From the NCBI RefSeq assembly GCF_003814705.1, contig NZ_RKRA01000001.1, positions 1-64,000 of the forward strand: a stretch of DNA of 64,000 bases, given 5' to 3'. The notes under the pieces were generated by a model. It was not told where the DNA came from. It did no database searches and saw only the letters and a list, made by a program, of their open reading frames with translations. This document shows, one piece after another, positions 26,801 to 36,694 of this stretch; positions within the stretch are counted from its first letter, which is position 1; each line of letters opens with the position of its first letter. Source of the stretch: Georgenia muralis. Lineage in GTDB: Bacteria; Actinomycetota; Actinomycetes; Actinomycetales; Actinomycetaceae. The position numbers were made by a program, and so were the translations under genes.

Positions 26801-27457
26801 CGGCGAGGTCTGTCCCCCGGCGATCGTCTCGCTCGGGGCGTCGGTGGCCGCGTCGGTGGACGCCGCCTTCTTGATGGTGCGGCGGGCGCGGGTCTTCTTC
26901 GGTGCCGGCTCGGCCTCGGACCGGTCGGCCGTCTCGGCGGGGACCGGTGCCTCGCCCGCGGGGACAGGTGCGTCCCCGGCAAGGACAGGTGCGTCCCCGG
27001 CAAGGACAGGTGCGTCCCCGGCGAGGACAGGTGCGTCGCCGGCGGGAGGAACGGCCTCGGCGGTCTTGCGGGTGGACGCGCGGCGGGTGCGGGGCTTCTT
27101 CGGCGCCTCGCCCTCCGCGGCCGGGGCCACGGTGGAGCCGGCGTCCGCGGCGGGAGCGTCCGCGGCGGGAGCCTCGGCAGGTGCCTGCCCGGCCGGCCCG
27201 GCGTCGCCACCCTCCGTGGTGGCCGGCGGGGTCTTGGCGCGGCTGCGCCGGGCGGGTGCCTTCTTCGCCGCGGGGGCCGCGGCGGCCTCGTCGGGTGCAC
27301 CCGCCTCGGGGGTGGCCCCCTCCGCCGTCGTCGCTGCGCCGGCGGGGGCGGTGGCGCGGCGGGACCGGGTGCGTCGCTTGGGGGCCTCGGTGGCCTCGGC
27401 GCCGGTGGCCTCGGCGGTGGTGGTCTCGGCCGGGGTGGTGCTGTCGTTGTCGCTCAT
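23837..27457 (-). CDS. rne: Ribonuclease E/G family protein
   Basis: Endoribonuclease of 1206 residues for rRNA and mRNA processing. The catalytic core is central: S1 domain from about 605 ('TSMVGNVYLGRVQNVLPSME'), RNase H/5'-sensor region, DNase I-like domain with metal Asp in 'VVDVNTGKFTG' (about 872) and 'IIVIDFIDM' (about 915), and the zinc-link-like 'CEVCNGRGF' near 975. About 600 N-terminal residues are Ala/Glu/Pro/Arg-rich and disordered, including a short tandem repeat 'PVLAGDA' (about 137-165) and Arg-rich blocks that may bind RNA; the C-terminal tail is also disordered. The ATG at 27457 has GGAGAGG upstream. Usually followed directly by rplU; here the two are separated by about 7 kb. 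Confidence 0.95.
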   Translation of the reverse strand: MSDNDSTTPAETTTAEATGAEATEAPKRRTRSRRATAPAGAATTAEGATPEAGAPDEAAAAPAAKKAPARRSRAKTPPATTEGGDAGPAGQAPAEAPAADAPAADAGSTVAPAAEGEAPKKPRTRRASTRKTAEAVPPAGDAPVLAGDAPVLAGDAPVLAGDAPVPAGEAPVPAETADRSEAEPAPKKTRARRTIKKAASTDAATDAPSETIAGGQTSPAAETAETGSAPSAEVRSADAAPVGTATGSGAAETGVSETGVSGTDVAEDGAAGTGKRPARRSRRATAPARSPEQKIDVLAELGLGGPAAPADEPPTEETDEDEDDELALADETQNAAEVSDSGAEPAEGPRLPAAALLFQAPDTSRARPRRRASAPAGAPVPATERAERTQSETATAEAATTESEPAAEEPRGRRRGGRRKPAEQPVTEQPTAEDELPEETGGATEEPEEGAEDSGDEERGGRRRRRRGGRGRRNRGGQGESGGEDDEEPPTEDEPEEEPESGEDEGEEGGSSSRRRRRRRRSGRSGEAEEPRPARDEVTALKGSTRLEAKRQRRREGREAGRRRPTLSEAEFLARREAVDRKMIVREKDGLNQIAVLEDGILVEHYVARHTQTSMVGNVYLGRVQNVLPSMEAAFVDLGKGRNAVLYAGEVNWDAAGMEGQPRRIEQALKSGDTVLVQVTKDPIGHKGARLTSQITLAGRHLVLVPSGAMTGISRKLPENERARLKKLLKEIVPEGAGVIVRTAAEGASEEQLRADVERLTKQWADIESKAKNAKAAPLLLKGEPELAVRVVRDVFNEDFESLVVSGGGAWETISGYVRDLSPDLAHRMHHWTSERDVFAEHRVDEQLAKAMDRKVWLPSGGSLVIDRTEAMTVVDVNTGKFTGSGGTLEETVTRNNLEAAEEIVRQLRLRDIGGIIVIDFIDMVLESNRDLVMRRLLECLGRDRTRHQVAEVTSLGLVQMTRKRVGQGLVEAFSTPCEVCNGRGFVVHDAPVERSANGTAVEEAPPSARRRGGRKGSGGSQPEAAPEPKEQAEDPAAVAAREAVKATLATIAAAAASAHEHDHEHDTEHPRSESDSSGTGSTGKETELTARAIGEELGALRASAGAPSEVDGARSEQSAVAEVSAADVTTASVAEPAEAAEPAVESTGVIGAPAPAAAVTPASPGDVAADETPSAPAPRRARRSRRVVASGVVTPPSSTPEGQQQ
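26955..27050 (-). repeat. Tandem repeat in rne N-terminal region
   Basis: Near-identical 24-bp units (core GGGGACGCACCTGTCC on the minus strand) encode repeated GDAPVLA units, with a more diverged copy at each side. The length is a multiple of three, so expansion would be tolerated. Confidence 0.75.
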
Positions 27458-27839
27458 GGGGTGAGCCTCTCCACCCGGGACGCCGTCCACACCCTGCCGG
27501 CGCCCTCGGGCGTCAATCGTCCGCGGCGAGCCGTGGACGGAAGTCCTGGTGTACGTCGGGTGCGCATCCGGTGCGCGGCCCGCCGCCGACGAACGGGACG
27601 ACCCGCCTGCCGTCTCCGGCTCGGCGGTGCCTGCACCGGTGCCCCTGCTGCAGCGCACTCACCTGGTCTGGCGAGGCGGCGCGAGGTGGGCGCCCGGTAC
27701 GAGGCGGTCGCGACGTCGTCGGACCGGAGAACGGGGTGTGGATCTGCTCTCCGACCATCACGGAGTATCTCACAGGGCGGCCCCGTCCGGGCGGGACGCG
27801 CGCGGGGCGGACCGGGTGGTCCTGACGTCCCGTCATCTC

Positions 27840-27857
27840 CCGGGACCTTGGTCCCGG
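27840..27857. promoter_or_regulatory. DevR-box-like palindrome upstream of cydA
   Basis: Sequence CCGGGACCTTGGTCCCGG: perfect 8-bp arms around TT. Its inner core GGGAC-N4-GTCCC matches the core and spacing of the DevR/DosR binding box of mycobacteria (GGGAC-TWWA-GTCCC). With transcription from the TAGGTT -10 at 27878-27883 it would lie at about -50 to -33, the position of an activator overlapping the -35. A DevS-like kinase and a DevR-like regulator are encoded downstream. Confidence 0.6.
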
Positions 27858-27877
27858 TCGGTGGCAGGGCCCGATCG

Positions 27878-27883
27878 TAGGTT
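27878..27883 (+). promoter_or_regulatory. Putative cydA -10 (TAGGTT)
   Basis: Located 20 bp after the palindrome and about 83 bp before the cydA GTG. No -35 consensus is evident at the expected place, which is occupied by the palindrome, as expected of an activator-dependent promoter. Confidence 0.35.
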
Positions 27884-27965
27884 TGGACGTGGCAGAACTC
27901 GTGCTCGCACAGCCCGTCCCGGGCGCGGCGCGACCCCCTCCCCGCATCTGAGAAGGGCTTCGCAG

Positions 27966-29459
27966 GTGGAGACACTCGACCTGGCTCGGTGGCAGTTCGG
28001 CATCACGACCGTCTACCACTTCGTCCTCGTCCCGCTGACGATCGGCCTGGCGCCCCTGGTGGCCGGCATGCACACCGCGTGGGTGCGCACCGGCAAGGAG
28101 CACTGGCACCGCCTGACGAAGTTCTTCGGCAAGATCCTCCTCATCAACTTCGCCCTGGGCGTGGCCACGGGCATCGTGCAGGAGTTCCAGTTCGGGATGA
28201 ACTGGTCGGAGTACTCCCGCTTCGTCGGCGACATCTTCGGCGCCCCGCTCGCCGTGGAGGCGCTCGCGGCGTTCTTCCTCGAGTCGACGTTCCTCGGCCT
28301 GTGGATCTTCGGCGAGGGCAAGCTCCCCCGCTGGCTGCACAGCCTCTCCATCTGGATGGTGGCACTGGGCTCGACGATCTCCGCGTACTGGATCCTCGCG
28401 GCGAACTCGTGGATGCAGCACCCGGTCGGCGCGGTCTACAACCCCGAGACAGGCCGGGCCGAGCTCGACGGCGTCGGCGGCTTCCTCGAGGTGATGACGA
28501 ACAACACCCTCCTCGCCGCGTTCTCGCACACCATCACCTCGGCGTTCCTCGTCGGGGGCACGTTCGTCGCCGGCATCTGCGGCTGGTGGATCGTGCGCTC
28601 GGTGCGCGCCGGGCGGGAGAACGAGGCGCGCCAGGTGTGGCGCCGCGGGGCGTACGTCGGCCTCGTCACGATCGTCCTGGCCGGGATCGGCGTCGTCGGC
28701 ACCGGCGACATCCAGGGCAAGCTCATGTACGAGCAGCAGCCCATGAAGATGTCCGCCGCCGAGGCGCTGTGCGAGGGCACCGAGGGGGCCTCGTTCTCGC
28801 TGCTGACCATCGGCGACCTGTCCAACAGCTGCGAGAGCGCCCACGCCATCCTCGAGATCCCGGGCCTGACCTCCTTCCTCGGCACAGGCTCCTTCAGCGG
28901 CCCGGAGAGCTACCTCCCCGGCGTCAACGACATCCAGGCCGAGTACACCGAGCGCTACTCCGAGACTTTCGGCGAGGTCGACTACACCCCCAACCTCATG
29001 GTCACGTACTGGAGCTTCCGGCTCATGATCGGGCTGGCGGTCTTCTCCGCCGCCCTGGCGCTGGCCGGCCTGTGGCTCCTGCGCAAGGGCCGGGTCACCG
29101 ACAAGGTGTGGTTCTCCCGGCTGAGCCTGCTGGCCCTGCCCATGCCGTTCCTCGCGGCGTCCTTCGGCTGGATCTTCACCGAGATGGGCCGCCAGCCCTG
29201 GGTCGTCCACCCCAACCCCGCCAACCCGGTCGACCAGGTGTACCTCCTCACCCAGAACGGGGTCTCCACGGTCGTCTCGGCCGGCTCGGTCATCACCTCG
29301 CTGGTGGTCTTCACCCTGCTGTACGCGGCGCTCGGCGTGGTGTGGTTCATGCTCATCCGGCGCTACGTCCGCGAAGGGGTGCGCCCGCTGCCCGAGGACG
29401 TCACCGACGCGCCGCAGGGCACCGACGAGCCCGCGCCGACCTTGTCCTTCGCGTACTGA
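27966..29459 (+). CDS. cydA: Cytochrome bd oxidase subunit I
   Basis: Membrane quinol oxidase subunit (497 residues) carrying hemes b558, b595 and d; reduces O2 with high affinity without pumping protons. Seen: 'LARWQFGITTVYHFVLVPLT' with the heme b595 ligand His18, the 'FGKILLINFALGVATGIVQE' helix, 'FSHTITSAFLVGG' with the heme b558 His, the Q-loop region, and 'GWIFTEMGRQPWVV'. The Q-loop is of the short type. The GTG at 27966 (GAAGGG upstream) gives the expected N-terminus 'ETLDLARWQF'. First gene of cydABDC-kinase. Confidence 0.97.
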   Translation: METLDLARWQFGITTVYHFVLVPLTIGLAPLVAGMHTAWVRTGKEHWHRLTKFFGKILLINFALGVATGIVQEFQFGMNWSEYSRFVGDIFGAPLAVEALAAFFLESTFLGLWIFGEGKLPRWLHSLSIWMVALGSTISAYWILAANSWMQHPVGAVYNPETGRAELDGVGGFLEVMTNNTLLAAFSHTITSAFLVGGTFVAGICGWWIVRSVRAGRENEARQVWRRGAYVGLVTIVLAGIGVVGTGDIQGKLMYEQQPMKMSAAEALCEGTEGASFSLLTIGDLSNSCESAHAILEIPGLTSFLGTGSFSGPESYLPGVNDIQAEYTERYSETFGEVDYTPNLMVTYWSFRLMIGLAVFSAALALAGLWLLRKGRVTDKVWFSRLSLLALPMPFLAASFGWIFTEMGRQPWVVHPNPANPVDQVYLLTQNGVSTVVSAGSVITSLVVFTLLYAALGVVWFMLIRRYVREGVRPLPEDVTDAPQGTDEPAPTLSFAY

Positions 29460-29483: not shown

Positions 29484-30548
29484 GTGGACCTCCCCCTCCT
29501 GTGGTTCCTGCTCATCGCGGTCCTGTGGACCGGCTACCTCGTCCTCGAGGGCTTCGACTTCGGCGTGGGCATGCTGCTGCGCCCGTTCGCCCGTGACGAG
29601 AACGAGCGCCGCGCCATGCTGCGCACCATCGGGCCCGTCTGGGACGGCAACGAGGTGTGGCTGCTCACCGCGGGCGGCGCCACCTTCGCCGCGTTCCCCG
29701 AGTGGTACGCCACGATGTTCTCCGGCTTCTACCTGCCGCTGCTGCTCATCCTCTTCGCGCTCATCATCCGCATCGTCGCGATCGAGTGGCGCGCCAAGAT
29801 CGACGACCCGCGCTGGCGCGGCCGCTGGGACTGGGCCCACACCGTCGGCGCCTGGATCCCCGCGGTCCTGTGGGGCGTGGCGTTCGCCAACCTCGTCCAG
29901 GGCATGGAGATCGAGGTGGTCGACGGCAACCACCAGCTCGTCGGCGGGTTCTTCTCGCTCATCACCCCGTTCACCCTCCTCGGCGGCGTCATGACCGCCA
30001 CGGTGTTCCTCACCCACGGCGCGGTCTTCCTCGCGCTGAAGACCGACGGCGAGATCCGCCACCGCGCCGGCGCCCTGGCCGCCCGGCTCTCGGTCCTGTC
30101 CCTCGTCGTCGCCGGGGTGTGGGCCGTGTGGGCGCAGCTGGCGTTCTCCGCCCACGCCCTCACCTGGGTCCCGCTGGTCGTGGCCGCCGTGGCGCTCGTC
30201 GGCGTCGTCGTGGCCGCCCGGGAGCGCCGCGAGGGCTGGGCGTTCGTCCTCAACGCCGTCGCGATCGTCGCGGCCGTGGTCCTCATCTTCGGGACCATGT
30301 ACCCCAACGTCATGCCCTCCTCGCTGGACCCGGCGTGGTCGCTGAGCATCGACCAGGCGGCCTCGACCGACGCCACCCTGACGGTGATGAGCATCGTCGC
30401 CCTGTTCTTCGTGCCGGTCGTCCTGGCCTACCAGGGCTGGACGTACTGGGTGTTCCGCAAGCGCATCGTCGCCGCCCCGGGCGGTGGCGACGACGGCCTC
30501 CACCCCACCGACGTCCGCGCGTTCGAGTCGACCACTGGGGCACACTGA
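29484..30548 (+). CDS. cydB: Cytochrome bd oxidase subunit II
   Basis: Heme-free partner of CydA, 354 residues with eight or nine transmembrane helices. Seen: the diagnostic start 'LWFLLIAVLWTGYLVLEGFD' followed by FGVGML, 'TIGPVWDGNEVWLLTAGGA', 'FPEWYATMFSGFYLPL'. GTG at 29484 is 24 bp after cydA, with TGGAGA upstream. Co-transcribed with cydA. Confidence 0.97.
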   Translation: MDLPLLWFLLIAVLWTGYLVLEGFDFGVGMLLRPFARDENERRAMLRTIGPVWDGNEVWLLTAGGATFAAFPEWYATMFSGFYLPLLLILFALIIRIVAIEWRAKIDDPRWRGRWDWAHTVGAWIPAVLWGVAFANLVQGMEIEVVDGNHQLVGGFFSLITPFTLLGGVMTATVFLTHGAVFLALKTDGEIRHRAGALAARLSVLSLVVAGVWAVWAQLAFSAHALTWVPLVVAAVALVGVVVAARERREGWAFVLNAVAIVAAVVLIFGTMYPNVMPSSLDPAWSLSIDQAASTDATLTVMSIVALFFVPVVLAYQGWTYWVFRKRIVAAPGGGDDGLHPTDVRAFESTTGAH

Positions 30549-30552
30549 GGCG

Positions 30553-32292
30553 GTGAAGCCGCTCGACCCACGCCTGCTCAGGCACGCCCGGGCGGCCCGC
30601 CGCTACATCGCCCTGACGGCGGTGACAGGGCTCGTCACCGCCGCGGCCGTGGTCGCCCAGGCCGTGCTCGTCGCCCGCGCGGTCTCCCCCGTCGTCGAGG
30701 GCCGTGCGGGCTGGGCGCAGGCCGCGCCGCTCGTGGCCGCCCTGGCCGGGGTGCTGGTGCTGCGCGCCGTCGTCCTGGTCGTCCAGGAGTCCCTCGCCCA
30801 CCGCGCCGCCCGTGACGTCGTCGCCGAGCTCCGCGAGCAGGTGCTCGCCCGGGCGGTGGCGCTCGGCCCGCGGTGGCTCGCCGACGGCAACGGCCCGCGG
30901 GTTGTCACCCTCGCCACGCGGGGGCTGGACGACCTCGAGCCCTACTTCGTGCGCTACCTCCCCCAGCTGCTGCTCGCCGCCACGGTCACCCCCGCCACGG
31001 TCCTGGTGATCCTCGGCCTGGACCTCACCTCGGCGCTCATCGTCGCCGCGACGATCCCCCTCATCCCGGTGTTCATGTGGCTCATCGGGGTGCTCACCCA
31101 GCGTTTCGCCGCGGAGCGGCTCGTCGCGATGCAGCGTCTGGGCGCCCAGCTCCTCGACCTCCTCGCCGGCCTGGCCACCCTCAAGGCCCTCGGCCGGGAG
31201 CGCGGACCCGCCGCGCGGGTGCGTGAGCTGGGGCAGGCCTACACCCGCACGACGATGGCCACGCTCAAGGTCGCCTTCCTCTCCGGCGCCGTGCTGGAGT
31301 TCCTCGCGTCGATCTCCGTGGCGCTCGTGGCGGTGACGATCGGCATGCGCATGGTCTACGGCGGGCTCGACCTCACCACCGGCCTGACCGTGCTCATGCT
31401 CGCGCCCGAGGTGTACCGCCCGCTGCGCGAGGTGGGATCGCACTTCCACGCCTCCGCGGACGGCGTCGCGGCCGCCGAGCAGGCCTTCGCCGTCCTCGAG
31501 GAGCGCCCGGCCACGCCCGGCACCGTGCCCGCACCCGACCTCCGCCGCACCGACATCGTCCTCGACGGCGTGAGCGTGGCGGCACCGGGCCGGGCGACGT
31601 GGGCGCCGTGGCGGCTGAGCGCGCGCCTGCACCCCGGTCGCGTGGTCGCCCTCGCCGGCCCCTCGGGCGCCGGCAAGACGACGGCCGCGCAGGTGGTCCT
31701 CGGTCTCCTTCGGCCGGAGGAGGGGTCGGTGCGCCTGGAGGACGTTCCTGCCGCCGGCCGGACCCGGCCGGCCGGCGCCGAGCCCGCCGACGCCGACGCC
31801 GGACCCGCCGGGCTCGACCTCGCCGACGTCGAGCCCGGCTCGTGGTTCGACCAGGTCACCTGGGTGCCGCAACGCCCGGTCATCGTGCCCGGGACCGTGC
31901 GGGCGAACGTCCTCGGTGACCGGCCGGTCGACGACGACGCCACGGCCGCCGCGCGCGCCACCGGCCTCGACACCGTCCTGGCCGAGCTCCCCCGCGGGTG
32001 GGAGACGCCCCTGGGCCACGGCGGGGTGGGGCTCTCCGTGGGCCAGCGTCAACGTCTCGCCCTGACCGCGGCCCTCCTCGGGAGCGCCCCGCTCGTCGTC
32101 CTCGACGAGCCGACCGCCCACCTCGACGCGGCCGCCGAGCAGCAGGTCCTGGACGCCGTGGCGGCCCTGCGCGACCAGGGCCGCACCGTCGTCGTCATCG
32201 CCCACCGGGCCGCCCTGCTCGACCTGGCCGACCACGTCGTCACGGTCGCCTCGGCCCCGGCCACCGCCGAGCCTGCCGAGGTGCGGTCATGA
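30553..32292 (+). CDS. cydD: Thiol reductant ABC exporter subunit CydD
   Basis: Half-transporter (579 residues) of the heterodimeric CydDC exporter of cysteine/glutathione-type reductants, needed for cytochrome bd assembly. Six-helix domain (1-300, 'DVVAELREQVLARAVALGPR', 'YLPQLLLAATVTPATVLVI') then nucleotide-binding domain: Walker A 'GPSGAGKTT', signature 'GLSVGQRQRLAL', Walker B 'LVVLDEPTAHLD'. GTG at 30553 lies 4 bp after the cydB stop. Order cydD before cydC as in other actinobacteria. Confidence 0.95.
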   Translation: MKPLDPRLLRHARAARRYIALTAVTGLVTAAAVVAQAVLVARAVSPVVEGRAGWAQAAPLVAALAGVLVLRAVVLVVQESLAHRAARDVVAELREQVLARAVALGPRWLADGNGPRVVTLATRGLDDLEPYFVRYLPQLLLAATVTPATVLVILGLDLTSALIVAATIPLIPVFMWLIGVLTQRFAAERLVAMQRLGAQLLDLLAGLATLKALGRERGPAARVRELGQAYTRTTMATLKVAFLSGAVLEFLASISVALVAVTIGMRMVYGGLDLTTGLTVLMLAPEVYRPLREVGSHFHASADGVAAAEQAFAVLEERPATPGTVPAPDLRRTDIVLDGVSVAAPGRATWAPWRLSARLHPGRVVALAGPSGAGKTTAAQVVLGLLRPEEGSVRLEDVPAAGRTRPAGAEPADADAGPAGLDLADVEPGSWFDQVTWVPQRPVIVPGTVRANVLGDRPVDDDATAAARATGLDTVLAELPRGWETPLGHGGVGLSVGQRQRLALTAALLGSAPLVVLDEPTAHLDAAAEQQVLDAVAALRDQGRTVVVIAHRAALLDLADHVVTVASAPATAEPAEVRS

Positions 32293-34235
32293 CCGCGCCC
32301 GCCCCACCGGCACCGCCGGCGGTGGCCGAGCGTCCCGGCGCCGGTGTGCTGCCGGCCGACGAGCGCCAGGCGCTGCGCCGGGCCGTCGGCCTGCTGGCCC
32401 TGGACCGGGTGCGCCTGCTGTGGGCGGTCCTCGCCGGCAGCGCGGGCCTCGGCAGCGCCGTGGCGCTCACGGCGACCTCCGCCTGGCTCATCGCCCGCGC
32501 CTCCCAGATGCCGCCCGTGCTGGAGCTGTCGGTCGCCGCGGTGGCCGTGCGGACCTTCGGCATCTCCCGCGCGGTGCTGCGCTACCTCGAGCGCCTCGCC
32601 TCACACCTGGTGGCGCTGCGCGGCATGGCGGCGCTGCGCGAGACCGTCTACCGCCGGCTCGCCGCCGGTCGCACCGACGCCGTCGCCGGCCTGCGCCGCG
32701 GGGACCTCCTGGCCCGGACGGGGGCCGACGTCGACGCAGTCGGCGACGTCGTCGTCCGCGCCCTGCTGCCCGCGGTGGTCGCAGCGGTCGTCGGGGTCGG
32801 GTCGGTCGTCCTCGTCGCGTGGCTGCACCCGGCCGCGGGCGCCGTGCTGGCCGTCTGCCTGCTCGTCGCGGGCGTCCTCGGGCCGTGGCTGAGCATGCGG
32901 TCGGCGCGGCTCGCCGAGCACGCCCAGGTCCTCGCCCGCGGTGAGCTCGCCGCCACGGCGATGACGATGGTCGACGGCGCCGCCGAGCTCACCGTCTCGC
33001 GGCGCGTCGCACCGCTCCTGCGCGACCTGGGCCGCACCGAGCGCGAGCTGGCCGCCGCCAAGGACGCCGCCGCGCGGCCGGCCGCGCTCGCCGCGGGCAT
33101 CGACACCCTCGCCATGGGGGCGGCCGTGCTCGGGGCCCTCGTGCTGGGCATCCCCGCCACCGTGGCGGGCACGCTCCAGCCGGTCGAGCTCGCCGTCGTC
33201 GTCCTCACCCCGCTGGCCGCGTTCGAGGGCACCGCCATGCTCGGCCCGGCGGCCGTCCAGCTCGTCCGGTCCGCCGGCTCGGCGGTGCGGGTCATGGCCC
33301 TGCTCGACGCCGCCGACCCGGACGGGCCCGAGCCGCCCGCCGGACCGACACCCGCACCCGCACCCGCCGGATCCGCACCCGCAGCCGCACCCGCCGGATC
33401 CGCACCCGCAGCCGTCGGGCCGGCCCTCGCGGCACCGGCGCTGACCACCGGCGCCCACCCCGGCGGACCGTGGCTGCGCGCCCGGGGCCTGGCCGTGGGC
33501 TGGCCCGGCGGCCCGGTCGTCGCGGCAGGCCTGGACCTGGACCTCGCGCCCTGCCGTGCGCTCGCCGTCGTCGGACCCAGCGGCATCGGCAAGACCACGC
33601 TCCTCCTCACCCTGGCCGGGCTGCTGCCGCCGCGGGCCGGCACGGTCACCCTCGACGGGACGGACGTGTGGGGCCGCTCCCGCGAGGAGGTCAGCCGGCA
33701 GGTCGTCCTCACGGCCGAGGAGGCGCACGTCTTCGCCACGACCGTCCTGGAGAACCTCCGCGTCGCCCGCGGCGACCTCACCGAGGACGCCGCCGCCGAC
33801 CTGCTGCGCCGCGCCGGTCTGGGCGAGTGGCTCGCCGGGCTGCCCGCCGGGACGGCCACCGGGCTCGGCACCGACGCCGCCACGATCTCCGGCGGGGAGC
33901 GCCGGCGCCTGCTCCTGGCGCGGGCGCTCGCCAGCCCGGCCCGGCTCCTCCTGCTCGACGAGCCCGCGGAGCACCTGGACCCGGCCACCGCCGACCGCCT
34001 GGTCACCGACCTCCTGCGTGCCGGGCGGGACGTCGCCGGCCGCGGGGTCCTGCTGGTGACCCATCGGCTCGCCGCCCTCGGCGCCGCGGACGAGGTCGTG
34101 GTCCTCGGCCCGGCGGGGGACGCGGGCGAGAGCCCGCCCGCACCGGCTACCGTGCAGGCCAGGGGCTCGCACGCGGAGCTCCTGGCCACCGTGCCCGCCT
34201 ACCGGTGGGCCGCCGAGCAGGAGGAGCGACGATGA
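32289..34235 (+). CDS. cydC: Thiol reductant ABC exporter subunit CydC
   Basis: Second half-transporter, 648 residues, coupled to cydD by ATGA. Membrane domain 1-320 ('ALTATSAWLIARASQMPPVL'), then nucleotide-binding domain with Walker A 'GPSGIGKTT', signature 'ISGGERRRLLLARAL' and Walker B 'LLLLDEPAEHLD'. Between the domains is a Pro/Ala linker (about 345-385) containing a duplicated 'APAGSAPAA' unit, encoded by a direct repeat near 33350-33415. The end overlaps the kinase gene start by ATGA, tying sensor production to the oxidase operon. Confidence 0.95.
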   Translation: MTAPAPPAPPAVAERPGAGVLPADERQALRRAVGLLALDRVRLLWAVLAGSAGLGSAVALTATSAWLIARASQMPPVLELSVAAVAVRTFGISRAVLRYLERLASHLVALRGMAALRETVYRRLAAGRTDAVAGLRRGDLLARTGADVDAVGDVVVRALLPAVVAAVVGVGSVVLVAWLHPAAGAVLAVCLLVAGVLGPWLSMRSARLAEHAQVLARGELAATAMTMVDGAAELTVSRRVAPLLRDLGRTERELAAAKDAAARPAALAAGIDTLAMGAAVLGALVLGIPATVAGTLQPVELAVVVLTPLAAFEGTAMLGPAAVQLVRSAGSAVRVMALLDAADPDGPEPPAGPTPAPAPAGSAPAAAPAGSAPAAVGPALAAPALTTGAHPGGPWLRARGLAVGWPGGPVVAAGLDLDLAPCRALAVVGPSGIGKTTLLLTLAGLLPPRAGTVTLDGTDVWGRSREEVSRQVVLTAEEAHVFATTVLENLRVARGDLTEDAAADLLRRAGLGEWLAGLPAGTATGLGTDAATISGGERRRLLLARALASPARLLLLDEPAEHLDPATADRLVTDLLRAGRDVAGRGVLLVTHRLAALGAADEVVVLGPAGDAGESPPAPATVQARGSHAELLATVPAYRWAAEQEERR

Positions 34236-35977
34236 GCGCCGAGGCCACCCGCGACGACGGCATCCACGTCCGCCGGGCCACCGACGCCACCGGCGGCGCG
34301 GACCGGCGACCGGACACCATCGCCTCGAACACCTCCTCCCTCCTCGGCGCGGCGATCGACCTCACCTCGCACCTGGACGTCCAGTCGGCGCTGAAGAACT
34401 TCGTCGACCGGGCCGCCCGCCTGTCCGGGGCCCGCTACGCCGCGCTCGGCGTCCTCGACAGCCGCGGCAACACCACCGCGTTCGTCCAGGTGGGCGTCAG
34501 CGAGGAGGAGCAGGCGGTCCTCAAGCACCCGCCGCGGGGGTACGGCGTGCTCGGCGCCATCCCCGTCGACGGCCCGCTGCTGCTGGACGACCTCACCCAG
34601 CACCCCGACTTCGGCGGCTTCCCACCCGGCCACCCCCCGATGCACTCCTTCCTCGGGGTGCCGGTGCGGGTCAACGAGCAGGTCTTCGGCCGGCTGTACC
34701 TGGCCGAGAAGCCGGGTGGGTTCACCGAGCACGACGCCCAGGACATGATGAGCCTGGCGGAGGCGGCCGCGGTCGCCATCGAGAACTCCCGCCTCTACGC
34801 CGAGGCCCGCAACCGCGAGCGCTGGATCGCCGTGAGCCAGGACATCACCACCACGCTGCTCGAGGGCACCGAGGAGGAGGAGGCCCTGGAGATGATCGTC
34901 TCGCGGGTCCGCGACGTCGCCGAGGCGGACACCGCGCTCATCGTGCTGCCCTCGGTCGGGGACGCCTGGGCGTGCGAGATCGCCGACGGGTACCTCGCCG
35001 GGGACCTCCTCGGCCTGGTCTTCCCGCCCGACGGCCGGGCGATGACGGTCCTCAAGGAGGGCACCGGCCTCATCGTCGACTCCCTCACCCGGCTGCGCAC
35101 GCTGCGCCTGCGCGAGCTCGCCCAGTTCGGCCCGGCCCTCTACGCGCCGATGATGCTGCGCGGTGAGGGCAAGGGCGTGCTCCTGCTGCTCCGGCGCATC
35201 GGCGGGCCGGAGTTCGACCCCTCCGACCGGGCCATGGCCGAGTCGGTCGCCCGCCAGGCCGCGCTGGCCCTCGAGCTCGCCGCGGCCCGGCACGCCCAGG
35301 ACGTCGCGGCGCTGCTCGACGAGCGCGCCCGCATCGGCCGGGACCTCCACGACCTGGCCATCCAGCAGCTCTTCGCCACCGGCATGCAGCTCGAGGCCGC
35401 CCGCACCGCCGCCGCCGAGCGCGGCGACCCCGCCCTGACCACCCTCCTCGAGGACTCCCTCTCCAGCGTGGACGAGTCCGTCAAGCAGATCCGCGCCATC
35501 GTGCACTCCCTGCGCGAGCCGGACACCGCCGTCGTGCTCGTCGAGCGGCTGCGGCGCGAGGCCTCGCTCGCCCGGACCTCGCTGGGGTACGCGCCCTCGC
35601 TCGTCATCGACGTCGAGGGCACCGTCATCTCCGACGACGACGCCCAGGCCGGGCTGGTCGACATCATCGACGACCGGGTCGACGCCGACATCTCCGACGA
35701 CGTCGTCGCGGTGGTCCGCGAGGGACTGTCCAACGCCGCCCGCCACGCCCGGGCCGCCTCGGTCCAGGTGCGCGTGAGCGTGCTCGGCTCGGGCCCGACC
35801 GGCCGGGTGGTGGTCGACGTCGAGGACGACGGCGGCGGCGTCGACCCCACCGTGAGCCGTCGCTCGGGACTGGCCAACCTCGCCACCCGTGCCCGGCGGC
35901 ACGGCGGGACGTTCTCCCTCGGCAAGAGCGAGCACGGCCAGGGCAGCCTCATGAGCTGGCAGGTGCCGCTCAGCTAG
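34232..35977 (+). CDS. DevS/DosT-like GAF-domain sensor histidine kinase
   Basis: Cytoplasmic kinase of 581 residues. Domains: GAF-A (50-185), GAF-B (205-350), HisKA_3 dimerisation/phosphoacceptor ('ARIGRDLHDLAIQQLFATGM', phospho-His 373) and HATPase ('VVREGLSNAARHARA' N-box, 'DDGGGVDP', 'SGLANLATRARRHGG'). GAF-A closely resembles mycobacterial DevS: 'PRGYGVLGAI', 'LDDLTQHPDFGGFPPGHPPM', 'FLGVPVRV'. His134 in PPGHPP falls at the position of the DevS heme ligand by eye, so binding of heme and sensing of O2/NO/CO are likely. No transmembrane helix. An extra acidic segment (about 450-470) precedes the N-box. Coupled to cydC; the partner regulator converges downstream. Confidence 0.92.
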   Translation: MSAEATRDDGIHVRRATDATGGADRRPDTIASNTSSLLGAAIDLTSHLDVQSALKNFVDRAARLSGARYAALGVLDSRGNTTAFVQVGVSEEEQAVLKHPPRGYGVLGAIPVDGPLLLDDLTQHPDFGGFPPGHPPMHSFLGVPVRVNEQVFGRLYLAEKPGGFTEHDAQDMMSLAEAAAVAIENSRLYAEARNRERWIAVSQDITTTLLEGTEEEEALEMIVSRVRDVAEADTALIVLPSVGDAWACEIADGYLAGDLLGLVFPPDGRAMTVLKEGTGLIVDSLTRLRTLRLRELAQFGPALYAPMMLRGEGKGVLLLLRRIGGPEFDPSDRAMAESVARQAALALELAAARHAQDVAALLDERARIGRDLHDLAIQQLFATGMQLEAARTAAAERGDPALTTLLEDSLSSVDESVKQIRAIVHSLREPDTAVVLVERLRREASLARTSLGYAPSLVIDVEGTVISDDDAQAGLVDIIDDRVDADISDDVVAVVREGLSNAARHARAASVQVRVSVLGSGPTGRVVVDVEDDGGGVDPTVSRRSGLANLATRARRHGGTFSLGKSEHGQGSLMSWQVPLS

Positions 35978-36037: not shown

Positions 36038-36694
36038 TCAGCCGCGCCAGCCGGCGGCGCGCTGCCCGGCGACCCAGGCGGCGACCTGGGTGCGGCGCTG
36101 CAGACCCATCTTCGACAGCAGCGCCGTGATGTGGTTCTTCACGGTCTTCTCCGCCACGCCCAGCCGGTCGCCGATCTCCCGGTTGGACAGGCCGTCGCCG
36201 ATGAGCTCGAGCACGCGACGCTCGGACGGGGTGAGGTCGGCGGTGGGGTCCTCGTGGTCGGCGCGCCGGCGGGTGACCGTCCGCTCGTCCAGGAGGGTGC
36301 GGCCCGCGGCCACGGCCCGCACGACGTCGGCGATCTCCGCGCCGCGGACGGTCTTGAGGAGGTAGGCCTTGGCGCCGGCGGCGAGGGCGGACGCGAGCGC
36401 GTCGTCGTCGTCGAAGGACGTCAGGACGATGGGCCGGGCGTCCGGCACCTTCTCGCGCAGGGTGGCGATGATGTCGATGCCGGTGCCGTCGGGCAGCTGC
36501 AGGTCGACGAGGAGGACCTCGGGCCGGACGAGCTGCGCCCGGCGCACGGCCTCGGCCACCGAGCCGGCCTCCGCGACGACCGTGAGGCCCTCGGCGCGGT
36601 CGACGATCTCCGCGATCCCACGACGCACGACCTCGTGGTCGTCGATGATCATGACCCGGATGTCGTGAACGGGCGTCTCCTGCGTGTTCGGCAC
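36038..36694 (-). CDS. NarL/DevR-type response regulator
   Basis: A 218-residue regulator. Receiver domain with acidic pair D18-D19, phosphoacceptor D64 ('LLVDLQLPDG'), T/S 'IVLTSFDD' and Lys in 'YLLKTVRG'; C-terminal LuxR-type helix-turn-helix 'NREIGDRLGVAEKTVKNHIT'. The receiver and HTH resemble DevR of mycobacteria. It converges with the DevS-like kinase gene (60 bp between stops), making it the probable cognate regulator, though transcribed separately. Candidate target: the palindrome upstream of cydA. Confidence 0.93.
   Translation of the reverse strand: MPNTQETPVHDIRVMIIDDHEVVRRGIAEIVDRAEGLTVVAEAGSVAEAVRRAQLVRPEVLLVDLQLPDGTGIDIIATLREKVPDARPIVLTSFDDDDALASALAAGAKAYLLKTVRGAEIADVVRAVAAGRTLLDERTVTRRRADHEDPTADLTPSERRVLELIGDGLSNREIGDRLGVAEKTVKNHITALLSKMGLQRRTQVAAWVAGQRAAGWRG

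Follow-up and report, generated by a model that had tools for sequence, protein, structure and literature searches.

The window analysed here is the whole stretch of 64,000 nucleotides from Georgenia muralis (NZ_RKRA01000001.1, positions 1-64,000; 74% GC). It contains a cydABDC cluster for cytochrome bd oxidase that ends in genes for a sensor kinase and a response regulator, and a 508-bp gap (27458-27965) bordered by cydA and by a divergent gene of the ribonuclease E/G family on the minus strand. This gap holds the 18-mer CCGGGACCTTGGTCCCGG at 27840-27857, in which two perfect 8-nt arms flank TT. The features of the locus are as follows.

27823-27835, no strand: second conserved palindrome, TGACG-TCC-CGTCA, centred near -61
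27840-27857, no strand: predicted DevR-type box, CCGGGACC-TT-GGTCCCGG, from sequence and conservation
27842-27855, inside 27840-27857: core of the predicted DevR-type box, GGGACCTTGGTCCC
27878-27883, plus strand: inferred -10 element of the cydA promoter, TAGGTT, at a conserved fixed spacing to the box
27950-27956, plus strand: likely ribosome-binding site of cydA, GAGAAGG, read in the sequence
27966-29459, plus strand: cydA, cytochrome bd oxidase subunit I, GTG start (Pfam PF01654, 519 bits)
29484-30548, plus strand: cydB, cytochrome bd oxidase subunit II (TIGR00203, 331 bits, above cut-off)
30553-32292, plus strand: cydD (TIGR02857, 578 bits, above cut-off), start codon approximate; the open reading frame listed and searched begins at 30484
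32289-34235, plus strand: cydC (TIGR02868, 565 bits, above cut-off)
34232-35977, plus strand: DevS/DosT-like sensor kinase, GAF-GAF-HisKA_3-HATPase_c, overlapping the end of cydC
36038-36694, minus strand: DevR-like response regulator (receiver and LuxR-type HTH), convergent with the kinase gene

The preliminary description had correctly located a palindrome in this intergenic region, and presented it as perfect over 18 bp, with AT-free arms, isolated and unlikely to arise by chance. The 8-nt arms are indeed perfect; because the central TT is not self-complementary, 16 of the 18 positions pair. The arms are not AT-free, since CCGGGACC and GGTCCCGG contain one A and one T, nor is the 18-mer isolated, because the conserved TGACnnnnnGTCA stands just upstream (TGACG-TCC-CGTCA at 27823-27835, the sole exact TGACGnnnCGTCA in the window). 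Apart from the 18-mer, no inverted repeat in the gap has perfect arms of at least 7 nt and a spacer of 0-10 nt. Eight perfect repeats of the same geometry (8-nt arms, 2-nt spacer) occur in the window, where spacers of 0-4 nt give 38 listings, some nested, at 31 distinct centres. Such repeats are common in a window of 74% GC; the bare palindrome is therefore unremarkable, and we discarded its statistics as evidence. The weight of the 18-mer comes from its exact sequence and its conservation.

Another conserved block lies between the ribonuclease E/G gene and cydA at 27711-27775 (GTCGTCGGACCG ... CGGGGTGTGG ... AGTATCnCACAG), some 255-320 nt upstream of the minus-strand gene. Many of its columns are invariant in all ten aligned genomes, and the leader fold z-score is -2.55. 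It is probably the promoter or a structured leader of the ribonuclease E/G gene. The Rfam search of 27000-28200 found no family above threshold for this block; the one match returned, to a miRNA, scored 19.5 bits where the gathering score is 88, and was discarded.

A conserved box upstream of cydA

A motif search upstream of cydA in relatives, as suggested in the preliminary description, revealed a strong footprint both at named loci and in whole genomes. The best 80 named cydA loci among the matches listed were used, 79 of them with enough upstream DNA. Within 250 bp of cydA, GGGACCnnGGTCCC was found with 0, 1 and 2 mismatches at 10, 11 and 12 of these 79 listed loci, against 0, 0.2 and 3.3 expected from shuffles; at no more than one mismatch, it thus precedes cydA at 21 of the 79, against 0.2. 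Two control stretches of the listed loci, one inside cydA (80 loci) and one from -1250 to -1000 (74 loci), each gave 0, 0 and 1 matches at 0, 1 and 2 mismatches. When 60 arms of the same composition were compared over the matches listed, the real arm reached 21 loci at no more than one mismatch and the next best 3, and spacers other than 2 nt occurred at one listed locus at most. Carriers among the matches listed include Occultella, Bowdeniella, Cellulomonas, Demequina and Quadrisphaera, as well as Amycolatopsis, Lentzea, Longimycelium, Virgisporangium and Mobilicoccus; the box is absent before cydA in most of the listed Mycobacterium, Rhodococcus and Nocardia loci.

The whole-genome set comprised 59 genomes of the order to which the window belongs, with a CydA match, sometimes distant, in 58. 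In the 250 bp upstream of cydA, the box was present with 0, 1 and 2 mismatches in 7, 12 and 10 genomes (29 of 58 in total), compared to a shuffle expectation of 0, 0.2 and 2.4. Seven members of the own genus (G001-G004 and G006-G008) have it at no more than two mismatches; in G005 CydA is only distant, yet a 2-mismatch box lies upstream. When ten genomes were aligned, GGGAC and GTCC of the box proved invariant. The two centre bases, left free in the search, are both A or T (WW) in 28 of the 29 cydA boxes, and the base beside the centre is mostly C or G (GGGACC). The site therefore has the two-fold symmetric GGGAC/GTCCC half-sites and A/T-rich 2-bp centre of the DevR/DosR-type consensus, and such boxes are conserved before the orthologous target genes cydA, nrdD and nrdJ.

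Several additional observations concern individual loci. At several cydA loci of Amycolatopsis, Prauserella, Longimycelium and Lentzea, a second, weaker copy of the box lies about 22-24 bp away; such pairs of a strong and a weaker box (L077, L079, L082 by eye, L087 and L089) look as if two dimers stood side by side. Genome G015 contains a second, broken copy of cydA with stop codons (G015:C1:2813379-2814814) besides an open copy that lies on another contig and has the same box upstream, and the broken copy could be an assembly artefact. Two contigs labelled as Proteobacteria and Acidobacteria metagenome-assembled genomes (L033 and L061) encode CydA proteins with 62% and 57% identity to that of the window, respectively, and L033 also has the linked kinase and regulator; both are probably mis-binned actinobacterial contigs.

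Promoter geometry and a second palindrome

We searched for a -10 element downstream of the 27 boxes, out of 29, that leave room for it. In 21 of these 27 genomes, TANNNT follows the start of the 14-bp core by 36-39 nt, against 0.46 expected from shuffles; among the 26 genomes that lack a good box, such a hexamer was found in one. In the window this element is TAGGTT at 27878-27883, which places the inferred transcription start at about 27890 and the centre of the box at -41.5, in agreement with the earlier placement of the palindrome at -50 to -33. A centre at -41.5 is the classical position of an activator overlapping the -35 region.

The conserved columns of the second palindrome were first noticed in the ten-genome alignment. 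At no more than one mismatch and 18-20 nt before the start of the box, TGACnnnnnGTCA occurs in 12 of the 27 genomes with a box against 0.03 expected, with a spacing of exactly 19 nt in 11 of these 12. Nine of the 12 belong to the own genus or are G015. At named loci it was found in 4 of 33 among the matches listed, against 0.02 expected, always at 19 nt. This palindrome may be another, divergent site for the DevR-like regulator, in which GAC-N5-GTC replaces GAC-N4-GTC, or it may serve a partner protein.

The linked regulator and kinase

The best solved relative of the regulator is DevR of Mycobacterium tuberculosis (3c3w, 184 bits), followed by VraR at 131. Read from the 3c3w alignment, it matches DevR at Asp8, Asp9, Asp54, Thr82, Lys104, Lys179, Lys182 and Asn183. 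The accessible text of PMC4082495 gives the last three as base contacts in the DosR-DNA complex. The protein thus has the receiver and LuxR HTH of a DevR response regulator, equivalents of Lys179, Lys182 and Asn183, and the phospho-acceptor Asp54. No good box was found in the 300 bp before its own gene, where the 10-letter core was matched at best with two mismatches, at -195, and an auto-regulatory box was discarded.

The first GAF domain of the kinase aligns with GAF-A of DevS/DosT at 114 bits, and the alignment retains a histidine at chain place 92, which is taken to be the haem ligand His149 under an inferred numbering. With this offset, Tyr171 lands on a conserved tyrosine of the kinase, and the place of Glu87 in DosS is occupied by Gly, as in DosT (both hand-counted); the roles of His149, Tyr171 and Glu87 are those described in the accessible text of PMC4082495. 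These residues would predict an oxygen-binding haem, and the Gly shared with DosT a stable oxy complex. The kinase thus combines the GAF-GAF-HisKA_3-HATPase_c architecture of DevS/DosT with a putative equivalent of the haem ligand His149/147, placed by the inferred chain-to-DevS numbering.

A relative of the regulator, at E values up to 1e-45 and down to 45% identity, was detected in 51 of the 59 genomes. The cydA box at no more than two mismatches is present in 29 of the 51 genomes with the regulator and in 0 of 7 without it (Fisher p 0.005), although Fisher tests overstate the case because the genomes are related and the seven regulator-less genomes mostly have a more distant CydA. The remaining 22 of the 51 have the regulator and no box within two mismatches before cydA; among them are 16 same-family genomes of 1.8-2.7 Mb. 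In 33 of 51 genomes the regulator gene is convergent with cydA and lies 0-15 kb downstream of it, and in 14 of the other 18 the two genes are on different contigs. Of the named loci among the matches listed, 18 have a linked kinase and regulator, and the box precedes cydA in 15 of them; of the 46 loci lacking this pair, 10 have the box. The group of 18 was hand-picked as loci where both matches exceed 100 bits, and 16 of the 80 loci were dropped for too short a flank. L067, L068 and L072 have the linked pair and no box.

Other genes preceded by the box

Exact sites with a WW centre (GGGACCWWGGTCCC) number 44 in the 59 genomes against 3 for the reversed control. Eighteen of the 44 could be assigned: seven precede cydA, six nrdD, two nrdJ, two universal stress protein genes and one a DevS-like kinase gene. 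The other 26 lie before other genes, are ambiguous or fall inside open reading frames from a rough gene caller. All four exact WW sites of G006 precede nrdD, a universal stress protein gene, cydA and nrdJ, and the two in the own genome precede cydA and the B12-dependent ribonucleotide reductase gene nrdJ (NF005122, 889 bits, above cut-off); own-genome nrdD has the near-match GGGACCATCGTCCT upstream. At no more than one mismatch, the GGGAC-N4-GTCCC core was found at 13 of 30 nrdD loci (30 of 35 matches) against 0.97 in shuffles, and at 8 of 22 nrdJ loci against 1.9. The signal at nrdJ is the weaker one, with the 12-letter pattern at no more than one mismatch in 3 of 22 loci against 0.17 in shuffles. 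A box is also found at a GAF-HisKA_3 kinase gene in G043 (L139).

With GGGACNWWNGTCCC, the own genome yields 7 sites and the control 0; one lies just before a flavodoxin-domain gene (L237), and a near-match lies between a flavodoxin-domain gene and an Hsp20 gene (L012). Exact arms occur at 9 sites in the own genome, and with one mismatch allowed at 69 against 29 for the reversed control. Besides cydA and nrdJ, exact-arm sites precede genes for arginine deiminase (L005), thioredoxin (L006), a YwiC-like protein (L003) and an FMN-reductase-like protein (L008; labelled by eye, no NCBIfam match), and those of L002, L007 and L009 have no obvious hypoxia target by eye. As their centres are not WW, these additional sites were not counted as proof. 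The one shortly before the arginine deiminase gene, GGGACCTCGGTCCC at L005:1501-1514, could mark an anaerobic energy target.

Some boxes or near-matches are followed by ACAACATATGGTG- or CCACAACATCT-like stretches, as at L274, L283 and L287 (nrdJ) and L256 and L257 (nrdD). These stretches resemble an NrdR box, and the combination suggests a joint control of ribonucleotide reductase genes. According to the accessible text of PMC4428469, nrdZ belongs to the DosR regulon of M. tuberculosis, and universal stress proteins and alpha-crystallins are among its core members in mycobacteria and related actinomycetes, so the set of co-targets is sensible for a DevR relative.

Discussion

Taken together, our observations indicate that the 18-mer is very probably a DevR-type activator box for the low-oxygen induction of cytochrome bd. 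The sequence, conservation, promoter spacing, linked DevS/DevR-like genes and co-targets were computed here, while haem sensing, phosphorylation, binding and the direction of regulation are what we infer from them. Oxygen shortage would lead the DevS/DosT-like GAF kinase at the end of the cyd cluster to phosphorylate the convergent DevR-like regulator. The phosphorylated dimer would then sit on the box with one subunit per GGGAC half-site, by analogy with the DosR-DNA complex. Overlapping the -35 region at -41.5 and facing the -10 element TAGGTT, it could recruit RNA polymerase and switch on cydABDC, and probably the kinase gene too. The upstream TGACGtccCGTCA near -61 may be occupied by a further dimer or by a partner protein. 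Through the same box, the same regulator would also act on oxygen-independent ribonucleotide reductase genes and other hypoxia genes.

The box could instead be the conserved operator of another regulator of the NarL/LuxR family, a paralogue of the cyd-linked DevR relative. Our search of the own genome yielded 34 matches to the regulator, several near full length, and ten named loci among the matches listed have the box without a linked kinase-regulator pair; both speak for a paralogue. However, the next own-genome match reaches only 107 bits and 40% identity, so the linked regulator has no close paralogue there, and the box is missing in all seven genomes that lack a close relative of the linked regulator. 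The GGGAC halves and WW centre fit DevR/OsdR sites, and the co-targets include universal stress protein and class II ribonucleotide reductase genes, both known as types of DevR target. We therefore consider a paralogue improbable.

Rex differs from DevR in both protein family and operator. A repressor site for a redox regulator of the cyd genes, such as Rex or ArnR, has a precedent in Streptomyces coelicolor, where Rex represses the same operon under oxygen- or redox-linked control (accessible text of PMC2799521). In contrast, no site like the Rex motif TTGTGnnnnnnCACAA was found near cydA or at the cyd promoter at up to two mismatches, the 4 matches to TTGTGnnnnnnCACAA in the window are at chance level (4.5 expected), and the box itself is unlike this motif. 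The preference for a DevR-type activator site over a Rex site in the preliminary description was thus well placed, considering also the footprint and the DevR-like regulator and DevS/DosT-like kinase in the cluster; a Rex or ArnR site is highly improbable. Just as hard to believe is a chance palindrome, RNA hairpin or terminator: repeats of this geometry are common (8 in the window), but the conservation of the box at a fixed promoter position across genera contradicts this reading, as do the lack of a T run after the 18-mer, the divergent orientation of the neighbouring genes and an inferred start downstream of it.

In M. tuberculosis, the DevR/DosR box has the consensus TTSGGGACTWWAGTCCCSAA. 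It likewise consists of two GGGAC-type half-sites around a WW centre; the base beside the centre is T or A there and mostly C or G here (GGGACC). The regulator shares the base-contacting residues of DevR, the GAF-GAF kinase has the aligned putative haem-ligand histidine of the DevRS-DosT system, and universal stress proteins and class II ribonucleotide reductase are target types in common with the DosR regulon. In contrast to M. tuberculosis, the box here stands on cydABDC and nrdJ/nrdD, and the cyd cluster includes the genes for the kinase and the regulator. Mycobacterial cyd regulators named in the accessible parts of the literature are SenX3/RegX3, in Mycobacterium smegmatis also the cyclic AMP receptor protein (PMC7719681), and PrrAB (PMC6898941). 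Another comparable system is OsdKR of S. coelicolor, where the OsdR palindrome is of about the same length with the consensus AGGGCCGATCGGCCCT (PMC5069765, accessible text). The OsdR consensus half-site is GGGCC instead of GGGAC, the narG2 gene is preceded by AGGGACCTTCGGCCCC, which closely resembles the box described here, and the OsdR targets include stress and nitrate reductase genes; 'cydA' and 'cytochrome' are absent from the main text of that paper in its accessible form.

Box, regulator and kinase are each of a type already known. The features that look new are a DevSR-like pair physically joined to cydABDC, a coupling, in this order, with oxygen-independent ribonucleotide reductases, and an operator in two parts. 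Among the accessible papers, searches for a DosR/DevR box with cydA, or for nrdD together with cydA and DosR, found none; subscription papers may have the link. The accessible text of PMC2799521, PMC6898941, PMC7719681 and PMC11203133 does not name DevR/DosR as a cyd regulator, and that of PMC10581053 contains no such link; the comparative study of DosR regulons by Gerasimova (2011), cited in PMC4428469, may already contain it.

As a tentative joint reading, which may or may not hold as a whole and to which we give slightly less than even credence, DevSR would be built into the cytochrome bd cluster across a large part of Actinomycetia. It would act primarily as a switch for microaerobic growth, the high-affinity oxidase and the oxygen-independent ribonucleotide reductases allowing respiration and DNA synthesis to go on at low oxygen; the dormancy regulon of mycobacteria would be a specialisation that arose later or in parallel. 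The cydA operator would then have two parts, a DevR box at -41.5 and the second palindrome at a fixed 19-20 nt upstream.

DevR/DosR is the dormancy regulator of the tubercle bacillus. Our findings suggest that in much of this order a close relative appears to be wired to the cytochrome bd operon and to oxygen-independent synthesis of DNA precursors. They point to a regulator of cydABDC outside mycobacteria that can be tested, and they shed light on the roles that DevR-type systems may have in the relatives of the tubercle bacillus.
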